From Moraxella boevrei DSM 14165 (GTDB lineage: Bacteria; Pseudomonadota; Gammaproteobacteria; Pseudomonadales; Moraxellaceae), in the NCBI RefSeq assembly GCF_000379845.1, contig NZ_KB903780.1:1-58194 (forward strand): a stretch of DNA of 58,194 nt, read 5' to 3'. Below the pieces are notes generated by a model. The model searched no databases and was not told the origin of the DNA. It was given only the letters and a program-made list of their open reading frames with translations. The position numbers and the translations under genes were made by a program. Below are positions 315 through 51,964 of the stretch, piece by piece. Positions within the stretch are counted from its first letter, which is position 1; each line of letters opens with the position of its first letter.

Positions 315-1858
315 TTACTCGCCAAGATGGGGGTTTAACCATTCCTTCGCCGTCGCCAAATCCCAGCCTTTTAATTTGGCATAATGCTCTAATTGGTCTT
401 GGCTGATTTTACCGATGTTAAAATATTCACTTTCAGGCAAGCTATAATAAAATCCACTCACGCTTGACGGTGGGTACATGGCGTAGCTTTCGGTAACAAA
501 TGTGCCGATTTCTTGTGTGGTGTAAAGCCAGTCAAACAGCGTGCCTTTTTCGGTATGTTCTGGGCAGGACGGGTAGCTGGGGGCTGGGCGTATGCCGACA
601 TATTTTTCACGGATTAACTCATCATTGGTGAGATTTTCGTTCGCTTGATAGCCCCAAAATTCTTTGCGAATGCGTTTATGCAGATGTTCGGCAAAACTTT
701 CTGCAAAACGGTCACCCAAACTTTGTGCCAAAATCGCCGAATAGTCATCGCCTTTCGTTTTAAACTCACTCGCCATCTCTTCCACGCCAAAAATTGACAC
801 GGTAAATCCGCCCAAATAATCATTGCCATGGGGCGAAATGTAATCAGCAAGCGACAAGTTGGGTTTGCCTGTGACCTTATCTGACTGCTGACGCAAATGG
901 TAAAACTCATGCGTGGCTTGACCCAAACCATCACCACAGTTATCGTAAACCGTAACCGTAACCGTATCCGTGCGTTTGGCTTGCATCAGCGTAAATACTG
1001 CTCGTGCGTCAAATCGCTGATTATCAATGATGTCTTTTAACAGGGTTTGGGCGTTGTCATATAATTCTCGTGCCGACTCGCCGACAATTTCATCGTCCAA
1101 GATTTTAGGGAATTTGCCTGCTAAACTCCACGAAATAAAAAACGGTGTCCAGTCAAAATAATTGAGCAAAACATCAAGTGGATAATTTTTTAACACCTGT
1201 TTGCCAAGCTGATTAGGAATTGGTGGTAAGTAATTTTCCCAATCTTTTTTAAAGCCGTTTTCTACCACTTCAAGATAACTTAATTTGGCGGCTTTGGGTT
1301 GTTTATTGGCAAGGCGTTCACGCACTGTTTGATATTCAGCACGAGTTTTGGTAACAAATTGTCCTTTCATTTCTTTGGATAATAGCGTGGTCGCCACGTC
1401 CACTGCACGGCTAGCGTCCGCCACATAAATCACCGCATCATTGCTATAATTTGGGTCAATTTTTACCGCCGTGTGGGCTTTTGATGTGGTCGCACCACCG
1501 ATGAGTAGCGGAATATGAAAGCCTTGTTCTTGCATTTGGCTTGCGACATAGACCATTTCATCGAGGCTTGGCATGATTAATCCTGATAGTCCGATGATGT
1601 CCACTTTTTCATCTTTGGCGGTTTGCAAAATTTTCTCACAAGGTACCATTACGCCCAAATCGATGATGTCATAGCCGTTACACCCTAAGACTACACCCAC
1701 GATGTTTTTGCCGATGTCGTGTACGTCGCCTTTGACGGTCGCCATTAAGACCTTGCCCTTTTTCAGTATCCGCCTGTCCTTTTTCATCAAATGCCATGAC
1801 GATAATCGCCGAACCGTAACGGCGACACAGGCGAGCCTTTTGTACAAACTCATGTTAA
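315..1858 (-). pseudogene. metH: Methionine synthase (cobalamin-dependent) remnant, internally deleted and 5'-truncated
   Basis: From about 1752 down to 315 the frame encodes the cobalamin domain (DVHDIGKN, whose His is the cobalt ligand) followed by the complete AdoMet reactivation domain, including the RPAPSYPSCPEH region. Upstream, in another frame (about 1766-1855), lies a piece of the pterin-binding domain ([20 protein letters not shown]). In intact MetH these parts are separated by roughly 270 residues, so there is an internal deletion plus frameshift near 1752-1770. The junction sits in a short repeat (GAAAAAGGACAG against GAAAAAGGGCAAG), suggesting microhomology deletion. The homocysteine-binding domain is absent and an IS1595-type remnant begins just upstream. 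The gene cannot make a working enzyme. Intact MetH transfers the methyl group of methyltetrahydrofolate to homocysteine. Confidence 0.9.
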
Positions 1859-3165: not shown

Positions 3166-3723
3166 ATGCAAACTACCCTAACACCCTTAATTGACCCCAT
3201 TCAAACACTCACCCCAACCCCAAAACCTAGCCTAAAACGCTGGTGGCGACAGGTTTTTTTTATCCCCTGTATCCACAACCGTTGGCTTACCCAACAAGCC
3301 CAAGCCGAACTCTCCAAAGCCGTTAGTCAAGCCGAAACAGGACACCGTGGCGAAGTCTTTTTGGTGATAGAAAACACCTTACCTCTCCACATCGCACGCA
3401 CACAAGATAGCCGAGACAGGGCAGTACAAGTGTTCGCTGACTATGGCGTGTGGGATACGGCAGACAATACAGGTGTGCTCGTCTATCTCAACGTCTGCGA
3501 ACACCGTCTAGAAATCGTGGCAGATAGGGGTATCAATCAGCACGTTTTGCCGACCATGTGGCAAGCCATGTGCGACAAGGCTCTTACCCAGATCAAAGCC
3601 GACAAACCTGTCGTTGGATTGGTCGGATTATTGGACGACATTGGACAGTTATTACGCCAATATTACCAACAAACCGACACCGCAGGTAACGAATTAAGCG
3701 ACACAGTTGTTTACTTAAGATAA
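3166..3723 (+). CDS. TPM-domain protein (stand-alone)
   Basis: This 185-residue protein has a TPM/DUF477 domain over most of its length. Diagnostic parts are AQAELSKAVSQAETGHRGEV, a DNTGVLVYLN strand and VADRGINQ. There is no signal peptide, and a Trp/Arg-rich N-terminus (RWWRQVF) precedes the domain. Such short TPM proteins often follow lemA and a secreted TPM gene; here that pair sits about 51 kb away (54086-56183), so the usual trio is split. TPM domains have been linked to phosphatase activity and thylakoid or envelope maintenance, but no biochemical role can be assigned here. It has its own A+T-rich upstream region. Confidence 0.78.
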   Translation: MQTTLTPLIDPIQTLTPTPKPSLKRWWRQVFFIPCIHNRWLTQQAQAELSKAVSQAETGHRGEVFLVIENTLPLHIARTQDSRDRAVQVFADYGVWDTADNTGVLVYLNVCEHRLEIVADRGINQHVLPTMWQAMCDKALTQIKADKPVVGLVGLLDDIGQLLRQYYQQTDTAGNELSDTVVYLR

Positions 3724-3773
3724 GGTATATTTTTAATGAAATTTTGTTTATAATAATCAATCAAATAAACTTA

Positions 3774-3898
3774 GAACCTGTATTTATCACGTTTTTGTAA
3801 TGAAAAGTAAGCTTTAGCCAATTTTCATGCGAAAGCGAACTTTTGTCTATTAATTTTTACAGCAAATGTTAATTGCGTAAAGCTGTGAATACAGGTTC
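3774..3898. repeat. 125-bp miniature inverted-repeat element
   Basis: The ends are an 11-bp perfect inverted repeat, GAACCTGTATT at 3774-3784 and its complement at 3888-3898. Similarity extends a few bases further inward. TTA flanks both sides (3771-3773 and 3899-3901), consistent with a 3-bp target duplication; because of the palindromic edge, CTTAG (5 bp) is an equally valid reading. The interior has no open frame of note. Size, terminal repeats and duplication fit a MITE mobilised by an IS5-like transposase, which is an inference. Together with the next hairpin it fills the 315-base gap between the TPM and Sel1 genes. Confidence 0.6.
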
Positions 3899-3937
3899 TT
3901 AGTTTCCCGTTGGTAATGAGCTAAGTCGAAGTCTTGG

Positions 3938-3976
3938 AAAACCGTTATTCTTCGATAAGCTCAACATAACGGTTTT
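3938..3976. repeat. Perfect 11-bp inverted repeat (hairpin)
   Basis: AAAACCGTTAT at 3938-3948 pairs perfectly with ATAACGGTTTT at 3966-3976 around a 17-base loop (TTCTTCGATAAGCTCAA core). The loop itself contains a short CTTCGATAAGCTCAA motif of the type often found in dispersed intergenic repeats. It could end transcription coming from the TPM gene, but only four T residues follow the stem. Its origin as a decayed mobile repeat is equally possible. Confidence 0.45.
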
Positions 3977-4038
3977 AAATTAATCCTCTTATTTGATAAA
4001 ATTTTTGACAAATAAATAAAATTAACATTGGATAAAAA

Positions 4039-5055
4039 ATGACTGAACAAACGTCTCTTAATCACGATTTTTCCCATTACCAACCACTAGCCGAACAAGG
4101 CGATGCCGAAGCCCAATATCAGCTAGGTTTATGCTACGCCCAAGGTAACGGTGTAGAAAAAAACTTTCGTGAAGCAGGGCGATACTGGCTCATGGCAGGT
4201 AAACAAAACCATGCCTATGCGTTGCTATATTTGGGTAAATTGTTTGAAAAAGGGGCGGGCGTGCCACAGGACTATGCCCGAGCGTGTCAATGTTACCAAG
4301 TCGCTGGTCAACAAAATTTGGCAGAAGGCAAAGTTCATCTTGCCATGCTATATTTACAAGGGCTTGGCGTGGCACAAGATGCGAAAAAAGCAATTAATTT
4401 ATTTATCCAAGGGGCAGAACAAGGCGATGCTACCGCCCAATATAATTTGGCGATTGCCTATGAAAAAGGCATGGGCGGGTTGAGTGAAAATAACGAACAG
4501 GCGATTTTTTGGTATCAACAAGCGGTTAATCAAGGTTACGAACCTGCTAAAAAACGCCTTGAACGGATTGGCATGACGCATAATCAATCTAGTGAAACTG
4601 CCGAAGATTTATTTCAACAAGGCGTAGCCATACTACAGCACGACCTTGGCAACGCCTTTGCCCAATTTGAACAATCCGCCCAACAAAACTTTGCCAAAGC
4701 CCAATACAATATGGGCGTGGCTCATGCGTTTGGCGTGGCAAATGTGGCGTTGAATTTGGCAAAATCAGTTGAATATTTGCAAAAATCAGCGGAACAAGGC
4801 TATCGCAATGCCCATTTTTTGCTTGGTTGGCTATACCAAACCCAACAAAATTTAAAGAACGACACCCAAGCCCTTACCCATTATGAAAAAGCGAGCGAAC
4901 TCGGAAACGCTCAAGCCCAATACGCCCTGTATCAGATGTACGAAACAGGCAATGGCGTGGCAAAAAATCCCGAAACTGCCCTAATGTGGCTACGTCAATC
5001 CGCCAAACAAGGTTACGGCGTGGCGTATCAGCGTTTAGAGCAGTTAATCCCTTAA
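4039..5055 (+). CDS. Sel1-like repeat protein
   Basis: The 338-residue protein is built almost wholly of Sel1-type helical repeats of about 36 residues (AEAQYQLGLCYAQGNGVEKNF, then LYLGKLFEKGAGVPQDYA, AMLYLQGLGVAQDAKKA and so on), about eight units. There is no signal peptide or membrane segment, so it is probably cytoplasmic. Sel1 repeats mediate protein-protein contacts, and no catalytic domain is attached. The gene is followed 45 bases later by a small lipoprotein gene on the same strand, suggesting one transcript ending at the terminator at 5353-5385. The specific partner is unknown. ATG 4039 follows an A+T-rich leader with only a weak ribosome-binding site (TTGGAT). Confidence 0.85.
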   Translation: MTEQTSLNHDFSHYQPLAEQGDAEAQYQLGLCYAQGNGVEKNFREAGRYWLMAGKQNHAYALLYLGKLFEKGAGVPQDYARACQCYQVAGQQNLAEGKVHLAMLYLQGLGVAQDAKKAINLFIQGAEQGDATAQYNLAIAYEKGMGGLSENNEQAIFWYQQAVNQGYEPAKKRLERIGMTHNQSSETAEDLFQQGVAILQHDLGNAFAQFEQSAQQNFAKAQYNMGVAHAFGVANVALNLAKSVEYLQKSAEQGYRNAHFLLGWLYQTQQNLKNDTQALTHYEKASELGNAQAQYALYQMYETGNGVAKNPETALMWLRQSAKQGYGVAYQRLEQLIP

Positions 5056-21971: not shown

Positions 21972-22005
21972 ATACTTATATTTATCAACAGGTTATCAAT
22001 CATTT

Positions 22006-22037
22006 AATAAACGGATAAAAATCTTTATCCGTTTATT
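22006..22037 (+). terminator. recA terminator
   Basis: AATAAACGGATAA (22006-22018) and TTATCCGTTTATT (22025-22037) form a perfect 13-bp stem with a 6-base loop, followed by TTA. It lies 34 bases after the recA stop and 24 bases before the first methyltransferase start, so it separates recA from the restriction-modification genes and from recX. Confidence 0.75.
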
Positions 22038-22060
22038 TTATAGGGGTTATAGGGCATACT

Positions 22061-23206
22061 GTGGAATATATGCGACAACAAGCACACAATATTCATTCAT
22101 TTGATGATATTTTTTGTCATCAAGGTTTTAAAATCAGAGATTTTAATAAAAATAATCTGCAACATCAATCGTTAGCGGATACTTTTTCGCATGAGAAGTT
22201 ATTTAATATAGAAAATCGGCGTTATATTGGGAGTAAATCTAAATTAATGGCTTGGATAAATAATATTCTTTTAACAGAGTGTTTAGATTGTCATTCATTT
22301 TTTGATGTTTTTGCAGGGACGGGTATTGTTAGTCAGTCTATGTTAGCACATTACAATAAGCTGATAATGAATGATTTTTTATTTTCTAATCATGTGATTT
22401 ATCATGGTTTTTTATCACAGCAACCCTTTAATTTTAATAAGTTAATTCTATTAAAAAATAATTTTAATCAATCGTCTCATACTTTAAAAACGAATTATTT
22501 TTCAGAGAATTTTGGTGATAAGTTTTTTTCGTTAAATGATGCGAAACAAATTGGATGGATAAGAGAAGAAATTGAGCAATTATTTTTAACTAATAAAATT
22601 AATCAAAAAGAGTATCATATTTTATTAACGTCATTAATTTATTCATCAGACCGAGTTTCTAATACGGTTGGGCATTATGAGGCTTATATTAAAGGAAAAT
22701 CCATAGTGGATAGATTTGTTTTTGACCTTATTCAACCAATTATCAGCGATAAAGAGATTCAAATTTATCGTGAAGATGCCAATGTACTTGCTCCCAATAT
22801 TGATGCTGATATTGCTTTTATTGACCCACCTTATAATAGTCGTCAATACAGCCGTTTTTATCATGTGTTAGAAACGCTCATTAAATGGGATAAGCCAGAG
22901 CTGTTTGGCATTGCGATGAAGCCGAAAGAAGAAAATATGTCAAATTATTGTCGCTCGTCGGCACCACAAGCATTTGATGATTTAATCCAAAACTTAAATA
23001 CCAAATACATTGCGGTAACGTATAATAATACTTACATGTCTAAAAGCAGTTCATCACAAAATAAAATTTCATTGGCACAAATAACCGAAATTTTGCAAAG
23101 AAAAGGGCAAACCAAAGTTTTTGAAACATCGCATCAGTTTTTTAATACAGGAAAAACTGATTTTAATGACCACAAAGAATTTTTATTTATTACTCAAGTA
23201 GGTTGA
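22061..23206 (+). CDS. Adenine-specific DNA methyltransferase (Dam/D12 class), first of two in a type IIS system
   Basis: GTG 22061 (AGGG 8-11 bases upstream) gives 381 residues; ATG 22070 is an alternative. After a 50-residue leader, RRYIGSKSKL and DVFAGTGIVSQ form the AdoMet-binding start, and the catalytic DPPYNSRQYSRFYH lies near residue 253, the motif order of alpha-class N6-adenine methyltransferases. The gene is strikingly A+T-rich: the line 22561-22620 has 11 G+C in 60 by hand count, against 26 in a recA line. It stands first in an M-M-R operon; two methyltransferases are expected because a type IIS site is asymmetric. Confidence 0.88.
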   Translation: MEYMRQQAHNIHSFDDIFCHQGFKIRDFNKNNLQHQSLADTFSHEKLFNIENRRYIGSKSKLMAWINNILLTECLDCHSFFDVFAGTGIVSQSMLAHYNKLIMNDFLFSNHVIYHGFLSQQPFNFNKLILLKNNFNQSSHTLKTNYFSENFGDKFFSLNDAKQIGWIREEIEQLFLTNKINQKEYHILLTSLIYSSDRVSNTVGHYEAYIKGKSIVDRFVFDLIQPIISDKEIQIYREDANVLAPNIDADIAFIDPPYNSRQYSRFYHVLETLIKWDKPELFGIAMKPKEENMSNYCRSSAPQAFDDLIQNLNTKYIAVTYNNTYMSKSSSSQNKISLAQITEILQRKGQTKVFETSHQFFNTGKTDFNDHKEFLFITQVG

Positions 23207-23207
23207 T

Positions 23208-24125
23208 ATGAAGTCGGTTATTCGCTCACCATTTTTTTATGTGGGTGATAAATATAAATTAATGCCCCAGTTACAACAAATCGTTCCGCAAGATTTGGAC
23301 TATTTTATTGAGCCATTTGTTGGTGGTGGTAGTTCTTTTTTAAATATTAAAAGCCAACATTATTTGGTTAATGATATCAATCCTTATGTCATTCAATTAC
23401 ATCAATTTATAAATAGTTATCAAGATAATCTTGTAACCTTGCTTGATGAGCTGTATGCTTTAATTGATAATTATCAGTTATCTTGCTCTTATCGTGGCTT
23501 AACTGTGCCTGATGACTTAAAAAAAGCCTTTGTTAAGACTTATTATGCAAAATTCAATAAAGCAGGCTATTTAGCCATGCGAGATGATTTTAATCACAAT
23601 CAAACCGATATGCATCGTTTATATTTGTTGTTGATTTATGGTTTTAATCACATGATACGTTTTAATAGTTCTGGTAAATTTAATTTACCTGTTGGCAATG
23701 TGGATTTTAATAAAAATGTTTATCAAGCATTGCAAAATTATATGAATTTTATGCAAAACAATCAGATTACATTTTTTAATCATGATTATCAAAAATTTCT
23801 AAATCTAATTGATTTTAAAGATAAAAAAAATAGCTATGTTTTTTTAGACCCACCTTATCTGATTTCTATGAGTGAATATAATAAACTTTGGAATCAAGAA
23901 AAAGAGCAGGCTTTATGTCAGTTTTTAGATGAATTGCATCAAAAAAGTATTCGTTTTGGCATCACAAATTTAATTCATCATAAAAATAAATTTAACCAAA
24001 TATTTTTTGAATGGTCGCAAAAATATATCACTTATGATATTCAAAGTAATTATATTAGTTTTCATGACAATACAGTAAAAGCAACATCTAAAGAGATTTT
24101 TGTAACGAATTATGAGGTAAAATAA
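23208..24125 (+). CDS. Adenine-specific DNA methyltransferase (Dam class), second of two
   Basis: The 305-residue protein starts one base after the previous stop. It follows the Dam layout: SPFFYVGDKYKLMPQL, then PFVGGGSSFL (AdoMet loop, residues about 35-45), NDINPYV, a central target-recognition region, and DPPYLISMSEY near residue 217. The closest relatives by motif are Dam/MboI-type enzymes that methylate A in GATC-like sequences. With the first methyltransferase it should protect both strands of an asymmetric site. It shares the A+T-rich composition of its operon. Confidence 0.9.
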   Translation: MKSVIRSPFFYVGDKYKLMPQLQQIVPQDLDYFIEPFVGGGSSFLNIKSQHYLVNDINPYVIQLHQFINSYQDNLVTLLDELYALIDNYQLSCSYRGLTVPDDLKKAFVKTYYAKFNKAGYLAMRDDFNHNQTDMHRLYLLLIYGFNHMIRFNSSGKFNLPVGNVDFNKNVYQALQNYMNFMQNNQITFFNHDYQKFLNLIDFKDKKNSYVFLDPPYLISMSEYNKLWNQEKEQALCQFLDELHQKSIRFGITNLIHHKNKFNQIFFEWSQKYITYDIQSNYISFHDNTVKATSKEIFVTNYEVK

Positions 24126-24127
24126 TT

Positions 24128-25699
24128 ATGCGAAAGGAACGTCTAGCGGAAAGAAAACCTTTATCTTTTTCAACCACCATGAGAAATCCTGAGCGTATTG
24201 CCAGTTTTTTGGCGTGTATCAAGGATTTTGAAGGGCATGAATTAACATCAGAAGTCATTAAAAAAATTATTAAAAATGTATTAAATCAAGGCTTATATGA
24301 AACGACTTATCAAAGAAAAGATAAAGAGTTATTAGATAAAGTGAAAGCTCAAGAAGAACAATATACCGATGAACAACTTGATGAGATTATTCTCAAAAAT
24401 CCACAAAACCACAAGGAAGCAGGGTTTAATCATGGGTGGGATTCTCGCTTTGATACTTGGTATAAATTGCCAAAAGAATTTGGTTTTCTGTATTATGAGA
24501 TACATCAGCCGATTGAAATTTCTACCACAGGGCATATGTTGATAGATGCTTATCAACAATATCCAAGTAATGAGCAAAAAATCCAAAATGTATTTTTGAA
24601 TGCGTTGGCAAAATACCAATCTGATAATCCTTTTAGAAAAAATAAAAATTCCAATATACCCTTGATGTTGTTGTTAAATGTCATTCAATTATTAAAACAA
24701 GACAAAGATGAAAATAATGCAGGTGTTTTTCGTCAAGAATTGTCAATTTTCATTTGTTGGCAAAATAATGATGCCAATGCACTCTATCAATATTTAAAAC
24801 AGTTAAGAAAAGAAGTTGGTTTTACTTATTCAGATGAATATATCTATGAACGCTGTTTGGCATTGCTTGAAGGTGATGAAACGAAGAAAAATCGGTTCAA
24901 AATCAGTCAAATTTGTGGCGAGTCAGTTGATGAATATATCCGAAAAATGCGAAGTACGGGGATTATTTCTTTGCGTGGCAATGGACGATTTTTGGATTTT
25001 AACCAATTTGAAATTGATAAAATTCATTATTTATTGCAACAGTATTCAGATTATCCGATATTTAGCGATAAAAAATCCTATTATAACTATATGGGGCAAA
25101 TAGATAGTCAAATCGTTTCTATTCAGTCCAATATTCGTTTAGATACATCAGATATTCGCAAAAAGACACTGTATGAATATGCAAAAAACTACACGCCTTA
25201 CCAAATCTTTGATGAATTAAAAAAATTATTAGCTAGTAAGAGAGTAGAAAGTAAAGACCCTGTATTCAAGTTTATCCCTGCACCGACACGGCTAGAATTT
25301 TTAACCAGTATTGCTTTGGTTCAACAATTTCCAACATTGGTGGTAAACCCAAATTATATCGTTGACGATGAAGGTTTGCTAACTTGTACCGCATCAGGTG
25401 GTATGGCGGATACTGTTGTGCTAGATGTGGCGTGCGATGGTTTATTTGAAGTTACCTTAATGCGTGGCAGGCAAGACCAAACTTGTAATGAAATCGTTCC
25501 AATTCGTTGGCATTTAATGGAATATAAAAAGCGTAAAGAGAACGTTTTTTCTGTTTTTATTGCACCAAGCATACATGAAGACACCAAGGAAATGGCGAGT
25601 TGGTATAAACATAAAGACAATCTTGATATCTTAACTTTTGATATTTTGGCATTTTTAGAAAATATCAAACATAAATCTAACCTATCTCAACTGATATAG
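24128..25699 (+). CDS. Type IIS restriction endonuclease, AlwI-like
   Basis: The 523-residue protein begins MRKERLAERKPLSFSTTMRNPERI, the recognisable N-terminus of the AlwI / N.BstNBI restriction family, and ends with the probable nuclease core around residues 424-450: SGGMADTVVLD followed by FEVTLMRGRQDQ. AlwI itself recognises GGATC and cuts outside it; a GATC-containing site would suit the two Dam-like methyltransferases directly upstream (2-base gap). The exact specificity here is inference. It is A+T-rich like the methyltransferases, with recX starting 11 bases after the stop. Confidence 0.82.
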   Translation: MRKERLAERKPLSFSTTMRNPERIASFLACIKDFEGHELTSEVIKKIIKNVLNQGLYETTYQRKDKELLDKVKAQEEQYTDEQLDEIILKNPQNHKEAGFNHGWDSRFDTWYKLPKEFGFLYYEIHQPIEISTTGHMLIDAYQQYPSNEQKIQNVFLNALAKYQSDNPFRKNKNSNIPLMLLLNVIQLLKQDKDENNAGVFRQELSIFICWQNNDANALYQYLKQLRKEVGFTYSDEYIYERCLALLEGDETKKNRFKISQICGESVDEYIRKMRSTGIISLRGNGRFLDFNQFEIDKIHYLLQQYSDYPIFSDKKSYYNYMGQIDSQIVSIQSNIRLDTSDIRKKTLYEYAKNYTPYQIFDELKKLLASKRVESKDPVFKFIPAPTRLEFLTSIALVQQFPTLVVNPNYIVDDEGLLTCTASGGMADTVVLDVACDGLFEVTLMRGRQDQTCNEIVPIRWHLMEYKKRKENVFSVFIAPSIHEDTKEMASWYKHKDNLDILTFDILAFLENIKHKSNLSQLI

Positions 25700-48109: not shown

Positions 48110-48225
48110 ACCATGATTAGTTAAAGATTGTTGGTTTAAATAGGCTAAACGTAGGTTTGGTCTATTTTAGTTTTGTTTAAAGTAAAATAAAGAGTGTTTT
48201 AATATTTTAACAAAGGAAAATCTGT

Positions 48226-48435
48226 ATGCTAAAATCAGTCGTTCATGATGGACAAACCACCATTCCTAGCGATGTGATGACGATGCTATCCCTTAAAGAA
48301 GGTCAAGAATTAACTTGGGTGATGATGCCTGACCGTAGTATTGTGTTGCGAGCAAAAAATCGTCCAATTACGGATTTGGACGGAATGTTACCAACGCCAA
48401 AACAAGCAGTTTCTATTGATGAGATGCGTTTATAA
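48226..48435 (+). CDS. AbrB/MazE-type swapped-hairpin protein, orphan antitoxin candidate
   Basis: The 69-residue protein opens MLKSVVHDGQTTIPSDVMTM, the beta-hairpin of AbrB-family DNA-binding antitoxins (VapB/PrlF type), and ends with PKQAVSIDEMRL. AAAGGAAAATC is a good ribosome-binding site. A toxin gene is expected immediately downstream but only a 38-codon remnant frame follows (48442-48558), after which a DUF1016 nuclease gene begins. Antitoxins of this class bind DNA to autoregulate the operon and block the toxin. It is either an orphan regulator or half of a decayed pair. Confidence 0.75.
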   Translation: MLKSVVHDGQTTIPSDVMTMLSLKEGQELTWVMMPDRSIVLRAKNRPITDLDGMLPTPKQAVSIDEMRL

Positions 48436-48441
48436 TAATTT

Positions 48442-48558
48442 TATCAAGCTAATCGTGCGGATTTGCATACGGCGATTAGTGAGCAAGCCAATAAAACACC
48501 GTTTTATAGTTTTGATGTTAAAGCCAGTGAAATGAATAACAACCAATTATTTAATTGA
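48442..48558 (+). pseudogene. Possible remnant of a gene downstream of the AbrB-like gene
   Basis: A frame without a start codon reads FYQANRADLHTAISEQANKT then PFYSFDVKASEMNNNQLFN and stops at TGA 48556-48558. The composition is protein-like and the frame starts directly after the antitoxin stop, as if the end of a once-longer partner gene had been left. I cannot assign it to a toxin family. Chance coding in this short stretch is possible. Confidence 0.3.
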
Positions 48559-48579
48559 TTTTAAATTTTTTTTAACAAG

Positions 48580-49608
48580 ATGAATACTATCTCCGACAAT
48601 TTATTTACCAAAATCGCCGAAATTTTGCACCGTTCACGCCAAAATCTGGTGCAGACGGTCAATAGCACAATGACGCACGCTTATTTTGAAATTGGGCGAA
48701 TGATTGTTGAAGATGAGCAAAACGGACAACTGCGAGCGGAATATGGCAAACAGCAGTTGGCAAAATTATCCACGCAATTAACCGCTGAATTTGGTAAGGG
48801 ATTTTCCGAACGCAATTTACAAAGAATGCGTCAGTTTTATTTGGTTTATAGCGAGCAACGAGCATTTATTGCAAGTAAAAACAATGAGTTACAAATTTCG
48901 CCAACAGTGTTGTCGCAATTTCAGCTAAGTTATTCGCATTATTTAAAACTCATGCGAATTGCCGACCCGTTAGAACGCCAATTTTATGAAATTGAAAGCA
49001 TTAAGCACAATTGGAGCTTGCGAGAGTTAGAACGTCAGTACGATACGGCGTTGTTTACACGCCTTAGTTTGAGTAAAAATAAAGACGATGTTTTAAAGCT
49101 GGCATTGACAGGGCAAGTGATTGAAAAACCACAAGATTTAATCAAAGACCCTTATATTTTGGAGTTTTTAGGTCTGCCAGAGCAAAATTTGTATTCTGAA
49201 AATGAGCTTGAAAACCAATTGATTGACAAGTTAGAGCAGTTTTTGTTGGAGCTTGGGGCGGGTTTTACGTTTGTTGGTCGCCAAGAACGGATTAGCTTTG
49301 ATGAACAGCATTTTTTTGTGGATTTGGTGTTTTATAATCGCTTGTTACGTTGTTTTGTGTTGATTGATTTAAAAATTGGCAAGTTAAAACATCAAGATAT
49401 CGGACAGATGCAAATGTACGTGAATTTTTATGACCGTCAGATGAAACTTGACGATGAAAATCCCACGATTGGCATTATTTTGTGCCAAGATAAAAATCAA
49501 TCAGTGGTGGAATTTACCTTGCCTGCTGACAATACGCAAATTTTTGCCAGTCGTTATCAGACGATTTTACCAAGTAAAGAGCAACTGTTGCAAGTTATTA
49601 GTGACTAA
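48580..49608 (+). CDS. DUF1016 / YhcG-type PD-(D/E)xK nuclease
   Basis: The 342-residue protein has the N-terminal DUF1016 helical domain (AYFEIGRMIVEDEQNGQLRA, FSERNLQRMRQFYLVY, LSYSHYLKLMRI) and the C-terminal nuclease domain (FLGLPEQNLYSENELE, then FVDLVFYNRLLRCFVLIDLKIG with the D...DLK-type core, and GQMQMYVNFYD). YhcG-type proteins are linked to restriction and other defence loci but lack an established role. It starts the accessory island between the FKBP genes and parE. ATG 48580 has only weak ribosome-binding sequence. Base composition is near the core, unlike the three genes behind it. Confidence 0.88.
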   Translation: MNTISDNLFTKIAEILHRSRQNLVQTVNSTMTHAYFEIGRMIVEDEQNGQLRAEYGKQQLAKLSTQLTAEFGKGFSERNLQRMRQFYLVYSEQRAFIASKNNELQISPTVLSQFQLSYSHYLKLMRIADPLERQFYEIESIKHNWSLRELERQYDTALFTRLSLSKNKDDVLKLALTGQVIEKPQDLIKDPYILEFLGLPEQNLYSENELENQLIDKLEQFLLELGAGFTFVGRQERISFDEQHFFVDLVFYNRLLRCFVLIDLKIGKLKHQDIGQMQMYVNFYDRQMKLDDENPTIGIILCQDKNQSVVEFTLPADNTQIFASRYQTILPSKEQLLQVISD

Positions 49609-49655
49609 GTTAATCAATTTTTTAAAAACCTAAACTTAATTTTAAGGAGTGGAAT

Positions 49656-50753
49656 ATGAAAAAAAACTCACAAAAAGACAAATACACTCTCGATAAAAAA
49701 CGAGAAATATTAGCTAGCAATATTCGTCAGCTAAAGGTTAGAAAGTTTCCATTTGACGATTTAAACAGCATTGCGAAAAAGGCGGGATTATCCTCATCTG
49801 TGGGTTCAGAAGCAGTTGCTCAGAAAATAGAAAAGCTAGAGGGTAAAGATGCTAGTAAAATAATTACTGGGATGTTTGAAAAGATTGAAAATTTGCTAGA
49901 ATATAATACCGCCTTAGCTTCAAAAAGAATCTATTTATACGAAGTTCCCATAGATGAGTTAAAAGAAATTAAAAATTTATTTGATACCCATAGCTTGTTC
50001 AATAGCAAATTTAAATTAGGTGATGAGAGTTTATTTGATTACTCACTGCCTAATAATAATGACCGATATTCTAGTAAAATTTATAAAGCTAGTGATACAT
50101 TATTTTTATACTATATAAAGGGTTTTCGATCTTATGTTGAAAAAGTACATTCTCCCTCTCTAATGGCTAAAGCTCAAAATATTGAGGATGATGGAGAAGT
50201 TATTGATGTTCTAAAGGTAGTTAAACACAATGTAACAATATTCGATTTTGTTGCAATAGATTTAAAAAATAATTGTCTCATTTATGGGCTAGACTTAGAT
50301 AATGGAAAGTTTATAAAAGCTGAACTAGATAAAGCTTACGGCAAAATTAGTGATATTTTTAAAAATAGTTTTTCTAAATTTAATTTAAAGCCAATTAATT
50401 TAAGACCCTGTATTGCAAAAATGGAAAAAGAATTGAATGGTAAAGTAACCAAACATGGTTTTGCAACAGATGATGGTTCATACTCTTATACAGGTGGTAG
50501 TTCAACTCAAAAATTAGATGCTAGGCAAGATAAATTTTATGATGAAGGTATCAAAAATGTTAGCCCTGATTATTTTGGGATTAGAAAAATATATTCTTTA
50601 GAGAATAAAGATAATCCAATAATAGCTATAGAAATGGGATATAGAGAATACAGATCTTCAGCAACTTCAGAAATCAGATATGCAATTTTATATAATTTAA
50701 CAAAATTTGAAAGCTTGCAATTTTGCATAGATAAAATTATTTCTTTTAAATGA
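49656..50753 (+). CDS. Unknown protein, first gene of an A+T-rich three-gene cassette
   Basis: The 365-residue protein has no signal peptide or membrane segment. AAGGAGTGGAAT precedes ATG 49656. The N-terminal 70 residues are Lys-rich and helical (KREILASNIRQLKVRKFPFDD, EAVAQKIEKLEGKDASK), and the rest appears alpha/beta with many aromatic residues (RIYLYEVPIDELKEI, TIFDFVAIDLKNNCLIYGLD, GDGSYSYTGGSS-like GSYSYTGGSST). I recognise no catalytic motif and no family. The gene is clearly A+T-rich: 17 G+C in the line 50041-50100. It starts 47 bases after the DUF1016 nuclease and is followed one base after its stop by the next gene, so it is part of a tight operon with a nuclease candidate. Confidence 0.72.
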   Translation: MKKNSQKDKYTLDKKREILASNIRQLKVRKFPFDDLNSIAKKAGLSSSVGSEAVAQKIEKLEGKDASKIITGMFEKIENLLEYNTALASKRIYLYEVPIDELKEIKNLFDTHSLFNSKFKLGDESLFDYSLPNNNDRYSSKIYKASDTLFLYYIKGFRSYVEKVHSPSLMAKAQNIEDDGEVIDVLKVVKHNVTIFDFVAIDLKNNCLIYGLDLDNGKFIKAELDKAYGKISDIFKNSFSKFNLKPINLRPCIAKMEKELNGKVTKHGFATDDGSYSYTGGSSTQKLDARQDKFYDEGIKNVSPDYFGIRKIYSLENKDNPIIAIEMGYREYRSSATSEIRYAILYNLTKFESLQFCIDKIISFK

Positions 50754-50754
50754 G

Positions 50755-51234
50755 ATGTTTAAAATGGAAGCTAATCTAATGAAAATAAAAAGTTTTTTTG
50801 AATTAAAAACTAAATATCTTATTGAAGGCAGAGAAGATGGATATTTATTAGAAGAATCCTGTTTTAATATTATAGAAAATATTGTAGAAAGAGAAAAACT
50901 TAATAAAGACAAGTTTTTTGATTTTTCTTCCCTATTTAATATTTCAAAATTAGATAGGGATAATGATAAACAAAAATCTATATTTATAAAAATAGTCTAT
51001 ATTCTTGTACATCCAAACGTCGATTTTTTGGAGCAGAAGTTTCATTATTTGAATGATGATAGTAATTGGTATGATTTGGATATTGAAATCATTTATGAAA
51101 GTTATAAAACAAATATCTATATAGACCCACGCAATGACAGAAAAGTTTCAAAAGTTGAATTTAATGAAATAGTTTTGCCATACTTTGTTCCTTCTGATTT
51201 ATTGATTAGTAAATTGGAGGAACTTAGTGAATAG
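50755..51234 (+). CDS. Unknown protein, second gene of the three-gene cassette
   Basis: The frame has 159 codons from ATG 50755, which lies one base after the first gene's TGA; ATGs at 50764 and 50779 are alternatives. The protein is acidic and aromatic (FFELKTKYLIEGREDGYLLE, YDLDIEIIYESYKTNIYIDP, IVLPYFVPSDLLISKLEELS) with no signal or membrane segment and no family I know. The last 8 bases overlap the nuclease gene and include its ribosome-binding site, so translation is probably coupled. Small middle components like this are often accessory or immunity factors in defence operons; that is speculation. Confidence 0.68.
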   Translation: MFKMEANLMKIKSFFELKTKYLIEGREDGYLLEESCFNIIENIVEREKLNKDKFFDFSSLFNISKLDRDNDKQKSIFIKIVYILVHPNVDFLEQKFHYLNDDSNWYDLDIEIIYESYKTNIYIDPRNDRKVSKVEFNEIVLPYFVPSDLLISKLEELSE

Positions 51235-51931
51235 TTTTAACGATTTCCCATATGCAGAAGATTTAGCGATAAGAAATATTGCCTCAAAACTTTCATACGA
51301 AGATTTCATTAGCCAGTTAAATGAAGATATTGACTTAATAGTTGCAGATATGATGGATGGCGTAGAAAATTTTATTGATAGGAACGAAAAAAATATTTCA
51401 TATCATATCTATACGAATTTGAAGTCTAAAAACTATTCTGCAGAATACGACAGCGATAAAAATGGTAATGCTGATATTTCAGTAAGTGCTGGCTCATATA
51501 GATGGTTAGCTGAAGCAAAAATTTTTGGAGGTAAGAATAACTATAATACTGATTATTTATACGGTGGATTTAAGCAATTAACGACTCGTTATAGTAAATG
51601 TCAAGGGAATGCAGATTGTGGTGCAATGTTTATTTATATTCATCCAAGAAGTGCAGATGATAGTGAAAAAAATGTGATGGATGCTTGGAATAGTTTTTTA
51701 GAAGGAAAGAAATTGGAGTTAAATCAGCTTTGTATTATTCCACACAGTGGAAAAGATAGAAGTTTATATACTCAACATATACATGGTACAAGTGGTTATC
51801 CGTATAAAGTTAGGCATATTCCACTATGTTTTTTTCATTTACCTGAGGATAAGAGCGGGGTAAATGCAAAGAAATATAATGAGACTAGAGAAAAATTCTT
51901 AAATTTCGATAGCAAAGAAGAACATTTTTAA
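51227..51931 (+). CDS. PD-(D/E)xK-type nuclease candidate, third gene of the three-gene cassette
   Basis: GTG 51227, six bases after a strong GGAGG and overlapping the previous stop, gives 234 residues. The sequence GNADISVSAGSYRWLAEAKIFG carries the D-(x)-ExK signature (Asp in ADISV, Glu and Lys in AEAK) and is followed by GFKQLTTRY, a Q-xxx-Y helix as in many PD-(D/E)xK enzymes. The C-terminal part (HGTSGYPYKVRHIPLCFFHL) is of unknown kind. I infer a DNA- or RNA-cleaving role from these motifs only. With two unknown partners it makes a compact restriction-like operon ending 33 bases before parE. Confidence 0.75.
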   Translation: MNSFNDFPYAEDLAIRNIASKLSYEDFISQLNEDIDLIVADMMDGVENFIDRNEKNISYHIYTNLKSKNYSAEYDSDKNGNADISVSAGSYRWLAEAKIFGGKNNYNTDYLYGGFKQLTTRYSKCQGNADCGAMFIYIHPRSADDSEKNVMDAWNSFLEGKKLELNQLCIIPHSGKDRSLYTQHIHGTSGYPYKVRHIPLCFFHLPEDKSGVNAKKYNETREKFLNFDSKEEHF

Positions 51932-51964
51932 ATCTGTTTTAAAAAATTATAGGTAGAATTAATA

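Follow-up and report, generated by a model that had tools for sequence, protein, structure and literature searches.

A compact, A+T-rich run of three genes in Moraxella boevrei DSM 14165 raises two questions: do these genes belong together and, if so, what might they do? The genes, called A, B and C here, lie at positions 49656 to 51931 of contig NZ_KB903780.1 (assembly GCF_000379845.1), in a stretch of 58,194 nucleotides (positions 1 to 58,194, forward strand) that was analysed as a whole and that we refer to as the window. Our comparisons establish that A-B-C is a real unit, conserved together in distant bacteria beyond chance, and that B and C, or C alone, form a portable module for which A is one of several partners. 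A defensive role is very probable, and with moderate confidence we read the unit as a mobile three-gene immune cassette, in which A would be the sensor, B the connector and C the nuclease.

A conserved unit carried by mobile elements

All three genes are complete, intact open reading frames on the plus strand. Gene A (49656..50753) encodes 365 residues, gene B (50755..51234) encodes 159, and gene C (51227..51931), which begins with GTG, encodes 234. The tight packing described in the initial annotation follows from these coordinates: one base separates A from B, and B overlaps C by eight bases, provided that B begins at 50755 (alternative ATG starts lie at 50764 and 50779). The ribosome-binding sites of A and C are good. 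AAGGAG precedes gene A, and the strong GGAGG reported before the GTG of C is present on the plus strand at 51216..51220, within the end of gene B and six bases 5' of the start codon. The cassette has a G+C content of 28.3% (A 28.5, B 24.0 and C 30.9%) compared with 40.1% across the window and 45.6% in parE; the counts given earlier for single lines of sequence, 17/60 in the cassette and 24/60 in parE, were correct. Among 1119 segments of cassette length, three have an equal or lower G+C content, and each of them overlaps the cassette. A second A+T-rich stretch of the window lies at 22001-25000, with 28-31% G+C.

The evidence for a unit comes from 131 loci, namely the window, L002-L017, L042-L064 and L065-L155, with duplicates present (L043=L111, L045=L120, L046=L119, L049=L118, L050=L124, L061=L087 and perhaps more). 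C served as bait for these loci and their counts lean to C-bearing loci, which searches with A or B as bait offset. Complete triplets, with an A of more than 300 residues together with B and C, make up 102 of the 131, and in all 102 the order is A-B-C on one strand, with median gaps of 0.5 bases between A and B and -5.5 between B and C. The other 29 loci comprise nine fusions of B to a restriction or helicase-like protein (eight distinct), one fusion of B to FeeM (L104) and one to a ribosomal protein (L063), one B-C pair without A (L069), five NACHT fusions, five loci with a split or short A (three distinct) and seven cut by contig ends. The identities of A, B and C co-vary (r 0.80, 0.74 and 0.73, uncorrected for kinship) over 87 loci, a set that omits copies with C at least 90% identical.

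Genome surveys agree with this picture. C occurs in 18 of 299 Moraxellaceae genomes and in 7 of 398 Pseudomonadota genomes, the genome of the window being counted in both, and B is present in the identical 18 Moraxellaceae genomes. The A profile finds 21 of the 299, the same 18 plus G068, G126 and G092. In the phylum sample A is found in 5 of 398, all within the seven C-positive genomes, the remaining two of which carry a Type ISP fusion (G660) and the ribosomal-protein fusion (G614). Across the genus of G068, inferred to be Acinetobacter, 14 of 175 genomes have A, and the six newly found are all A-B-C. Co-occurrence of the three genes elsewhere, which the initial annotation proposed to check, was thus found, and their presence is sporadic.

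Ratios of dN/dS between 0.05 and 0.16 for all three genes in the pairs L053/L054 and L126/L127 indicate purifying selection. Other comparisons gave 0.26 for A and 0.23 for C (L118/L121), 0.15 for B (L011/L017), 0.12 for A and 0.11 for C (L014/L042) and, at saturated dS, 0.02 for A and 0.06 for B (L006/L051).

The unit is also mobile cargo of phages, plasmids and chromosomes. Relatives of C were found in 15 plasmid records, 5 phage records, 61 genome contigs and 30 viral contigs. The titles of C-bearing contigs name Cyanobacteriota, alpha-, beta- and gammaproteobacteria, Catalimonadaceae and Acidimicrobiales, the last two of which we take to belong to Bacteroidota and Actinomycetota. A tblastn search with A alone found no match in plasmids, and viral contigs yielded no relative when the window C was the sole query; the 30 viral loci came from a later scan. 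The plasmids are both small and large, including one of 6.1 kb from Klebsiella. In a PM2-like Vibrio phage record the triplet stands after the integrase, and in a Moraxella phage record it adjoins a repressor-like gene (by eye). Phage tail or replication genes, named by eye, are recurrent neighbours, with families seen in as many as 11 loci. Two loci, L200 and L201, have type I modification- and specificity-like genes directly downstream (by eye). A YqaJ-type recombinase and a companion gene precede A in three Acinetobacter genomes (L199-L201, by eye), suggesting a shared insertion site.

Copies in Escherichia coli have a consistent address. The triplet of OM835953, a record labelled Klebsiella phage KP12 with P2-like genes, matches at least 28 of 5426 E. 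coli genomes, a lower bound, since the comparison was of DNA with one member as query (another query returned no match); in six of these the match spans most of the triplet with at least 99% identity. One E. coli locus from each match class, four in all, was placed, and every one sits in a P2-like prophage with the replication endonuclease gene on one side and the portal gene on the other. This gpA-gpQ region of P2 is, in PMC9122126, a hotspot where defence systems were tested.

A nuclease candidate in a cassette without a name

What could the products do? The clearest clue is in C. An active site of the PD-(D/E)xK type runs in the order of a conserved acidic residue, D, (D/E)xK and then a helix with Q, and C presents E54, D83, E96-A97-K98 and Q117-x4-Y122. 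The residues E54, G80, D83, E96-x-K98, Q117 and Y122 are kept across 16 and then 76 relatives, and E54, D83, E96, K98, Q117 and Y122 are retained in 130 of 131 C sequences (duplicates included), the sole exception being a contig-end fragment that lacks the motif region. This strict conservation bears out C as a PD-(D/E)xK nuclease candidate. The motif as originally described stands for its Asp and Glu-Ala-Lys (D83 and E96-A97-K98) and needs correction in its last part, where four residues rather than three separate the glutamine from the tyrosine. Weak matches to PDDEXK_9 occur in two of 16 C relatives (best E 4e-4), and at E<0.05 the window C itself has no match in Pfam, NCBIfam or PADLOC.

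Family libraries give A-B-C no name. None of the three reaches a curated cut-off in Pfam or NCBIfam, and no PADLOC model matches the window A, B or C at E up to 1. Each protein does match a single PHROGs family, all three of them without an assigned function (A phrog_12777, E 7e-13; B phrog_11490, E 2e-12; C phrog_9664, E 2.5e-38), and these families are also matched by the triplets of OM835953 and of viral contig L126. Searches of PDB sequences returned nothing convincing for A, B or C. Sub-threshold matches of A to a calcium-binding family (E 0.007) and of C to Lar (E 0.06) were dismissed as chance, as was a histidine-kinase match. No methyltransferase match was found in the window A, B or C with Pfam and NCBIfam, methyltransferases appearing only in fusion variants, and A, B and C, including 15 A and 15 B sequences, gave no ATPase match. 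Gene A nevertheless has a firm signature of its own, with R29, G50, D213, Y257, G262, T271, R290 and G298 invariant or nearly invariant in 59 relatives. The first reading of the locus, that the first two proteins belong to no recognised family, agrees with our finding of no described family covering A or B; homology of all three to a described system was looked for and not found. No paper naming this triplet was found among open-licence papers, supplementary files lying outside the search.

Among known systems 3HP was the natural first candidate. It resembles A-B-C, as three genes without clear domains in the gpA-gpQ hotspot of P2-like prophages, where the four placed E. coli copies of A-B-C also sit. 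We take 3HP, or Rst_3HP, to be the same as a three-gene system described from the P2 hotspot. PMC9122126 describes that system as having no clear predicted domains, as lying in the gpA-gpQ hotspot and as protecting E. coli against P1. The study PMC10855318 ran PADLOC alone with PADLOC-DB v2.0.0 and lists 3HP; on that account this release should hold 3HP models. The 3HP models of PADLOC-DB v2.0.0 found no match in the A, B or C of the window, in 16 C and 15 A sequences, or in the A, B or C of KP12, B having been scanned as a single protein for the window and KP12 copies. The KP12 triplet is 99% identical to E. coli copies, one of which was seen in the P2 hotspot. An identity of A-B-C with 3HP is unlikely given the lack of any 3HP-model match among the members scanned, with PADLOC as the sole tool. 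The prevalence of 3HP on prophages, noted in PMC11305592, is compatible either way.

Other likenesses are partial. Type ISP and MmeI-like (type IIL) enzymes share parts with the cassette, in that seven distinct loci (six ISP, one MmeI-like) carry a C-terminal B followed by C, whereas the window cassette is without methyltransferase, helicase or target-recognition domain and has A in the enzyme's place. Defence proteins of the NACHT/STAND (signal transduction ATPases with numerous domains) group offer another parallel, since five cyanobacterial NACHT-HEAT proteins end in C, although the window cassette encodes no NTPase; the effector of known bacterial nucleotide-binding leucine-rich repeat (NLR) proteins is usually N-terminal. 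In ABC-3C systems a middle component links effector and sensor, an idea that A-B-C recalls, and one of 15 A homologues has a weak match to CTD12 (E 0.031); A-B-C, however, is without an ABC ATPase, and 15 B sequences gave no middle-component Pfam match. The nuclease region of three of 16 C sequences weakly matches the PADLOC candidate PDC-S54 (best E 5e-6), and one of 16 weakly matches HamA of Hachiman (E 0.012). PDC-S54 differs in being a single-protein candidate with a model of 410 positions, and the window C is itself unmatched by PDC-S54 and HamA. PMC13092281 (DefensePredictor) gives 13 validated E. coli systems with PD-(D/E)XK domains. A-B-C would be a widespread immune candidate carrying no name in Pfam, NCBIfam or PADLOC, and filed under unknown function in PHROGs.

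Partner exchange and a proposed mechanism

The point that matters most, and that lay beyond the reach of the initial annotation, is that B and C also occur with unrelated partners. The B and C models were built before the fusions were seen and hold no fusion sequences. The B model matches the C-terminus of Type ISP, MmeI-like and ResIII proteins over nearly the whole length of B (E 7e-7 to 2e-12), in six distinct Type ISP proteins of 1763-1779 residues, one MmeI-like protein (L004) and one protein of 1026 residues with a ResIII helicase match (L096). A further B stands at the C-terminal end of an unexpected partner, a FeeM-type N-acyl amino acid synthase (L104, 5865-7004; E 3e-17). The next gene after every one of these ISP, MmeI-like, ResIII and FeeM fusions is C. 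Pfam domains were run on the ISP proteins of L061 and L091 and on L004, L096 and L104, and the four remaining ISP proteins share 53-72% identity with that of L061 over their full length. Similarity between the ISP protein of L061 and the helicase-like protein of L096 is confined to B (53% over 121 residues; blastp, E up to 1e-5).

C can be joined directly as well. It forms the C-terminus of five cyanobacterial NACHT-HEAT proteins (C model E 8e-61 to 1e-67), with Pfam domains run on L073, L074 and L077, and L075 and L085 aligning with L073 end to end. Tests of 16 variant loci, L069 among them, revealed no A, and none was found in L063. The last of these, in genome G614 (746-1813, minus strand), encodes a 356-residue protein directly before C, of which residues 1-216 are ribosomal protein uS3 (PDB match E 8e-68) and the tail holds a partial, weak B-like stretch (E 5e-6 in a one-locus search, positions 28-94 of 123). 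G614 also encodes a uS3 of ordinary length, 61% identical to the L063 copy. A repressor-like gene lies upstream of the uS3 fusion (by eye).

From these arrangements we infer a mechanism. C would be a PD-(D/E)xK DNase, the effector of the system, that stays idle until needed, and B a small connector tying it to a sensor. A connector role for B is suggested by the fusions, in which B is what the other proteins carry, with C following immediately every time. A would sense infection, whether from a protein of the phage or from DNA in an unusual state, and act as activator; the basis is that other loci have, in place of A, detectors of foreign DNA or NACHT proteins, a class whose known systems respond to phage proteins. 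Acting through B, A would switch on C, which may then cut phage DNA, or phage and host DNA together. In relatives B and C would serve other partners, the restriction-modification (RM) enzymes and the helicase meeting foreign DNA themselves, and at least one partner would be a host-type protein. The FeeM and uS3 fusions suggest host-like proteins as baits.

Could C instead restrict DNA in the ordinary sense? In a modification-dependent (type IV-like) or methylase-free restriction system, A, or A with B, would read a modified or unprotected site and C would cut, the host being spared and no death following. The PD-(D/E)xK signature of C fits such a system, and in alphaproteobacteria B and C are joined to restriction enzymes that recognise DNA and carry specificity domains. 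A has no recognisable DNA-recognition domain, however, and the fusion partners also include NACHT-HEAT proteins, FeeM and a ribosomal protein, none of which is to our knowledge a reader of DNA modification. We consider restriction of this kind an unlikely account of the unit.

It is far less likely that the operon is an addiction module in which A or B would be an antitoxin restraining a toxin, C, for the maintenance of plasmids or prophages. Carriage on plasmids, the 6.1-kb Klebsiella plasmid among them, and on prophages is what such a module would show, and L069 has B and C alone. C is, however, fused to NACHT proteins with neither A nor B, and A is split or short while B and C remain open in three distinct loci (L046=L119, L050=L124 and L107, where assembly errors are possible), which suggests that A is not an antitoxin. 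We give equally little credence to a housekeeping role for phages or plasmids, such as processing DNA or keeping related prophages out, with no part in defence against other elements: the recurrent tail and replication neighbours and the place after the Vibrio phage integrase favour it, yet the triplet is also found sporadically on plasmids and chromosomes and its module is combined with restriction enzymes and NACHT proteins.

Several observations weigh against an immune cassette of sensor, connector and nuclease. No PDB chain is similar to C by sequence, and hhalign of C against its YhcG neighbour gave nothing, a weak test of a profile against a single sequence. Fusion to FeeM and to a ribosomal protein was seen once each and may be accidental. 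The B value in L014/L042 is 0.40, and dN/dS reaches 0.89 for C in the near-identical pair L006/L044, where the C start of L006 is altered by an insertion element. L069 has B and C without A or a recognisable sensor. Conversely, A occurs without B and C in two Moraxellaceae genomes (L193 and L194), and in a third (L195) A reaches a contig end; these copies form a sub-family of A in Acinetobacter, and A may have a function of its own. Finally, PMC9122126 reports activity for three of eight further cloned P2-hotspot systems, and position in the hotspot therefore proves little by itself.

Some of these loci have features of their own. In L006, an Acinetobacter baumannii record, an IS3-like element with two transposase-like frames lies between B and C at 3674-4953 (by eye), and L044 is the uninterrupted counterpart. 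The genes downstream of A in L193 and L194 were considered as replacement effectors; they begin about 140 bases away and show no relationship to one another, and we make no claim for them. In L194, A is followed by a 354-residue gene and a 170-residue membrane protein, which could be another effector pair, and an NTPase resembling NACHT proteins is encoded near this A lacking B and C (by eye).

Insertion site and wider meaning

In M. boevrei the cassette is part of an insertion. In the sister genome G050, whose parE is 90% identical, about 175 bases separate the FKBP gene from parE; the insertion genes are absent from that gap, and no A, B or C is present anywhere in the genome. The window, by comparison, carries about 3.8 kb at this place, at ~48186..51964, between the FKBP gene (end 48109) and parE (start 51965); the left edge is the point where the alignment to G050 stops, and the extent is approximate. 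In the other four genomes of the genus the FKBP gene does not adjoin parE, which makes those four uninformative on the site. The parE gene, a name that comes from the initial annotation, is directly downstream of the insertion and belongs to the same family as a second gene of GyrB length.

Two other genes share the insertion. A DUF1016/YhcG PD-(D/E)xK protein is encoded at 48580..49608 on the plus strand (Pfam E 1.4e-60), confirming the DUF1016 nuclease noted beside the cassette. We leave it outside the unit since no such protein is among the neighbour families listed as recurrent in at least three loci. Further upstream, on the plus strand at 48226..48435, lies a gene for a MazE/AbrB-type antitoxin-like protein of 69 residues; the roughly 145 bases from there to the DUF1016 gene hold no convincing toxin gene (window 48226-48580). 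The gene looks like an orphan antitoxin.

A broader idea, which we hold tentatively, is that B is a general immune coupling domain that plugs a dedicated nuclease, C, onto unrelated detectors or baits. The partners would then be a new detector family (A), complete RM enzymes and a helicase, alongside NLR-like NACHT proteins fused to C. On RM enzymes, B and C might provide a second, perhaps suicidal, defence triggered by the engagement or the failure of restriction. At its boldest, the idea would have spare copies of host proteins serving as decoys, as with the second uS3 in L063 and the FeeM synthase in L104.

If this is true, a connector common to RM enzymes and A, together with C on NACHT proteins, would link branches of immunity that are usually kept apart, and the host-protein partners would hint at decoys in bacteria. 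The natural fusions give testable predictions on how one nuclease is wired to different sensors, and the copies in E. coli prophages make the cassette testable in laboratory strains.

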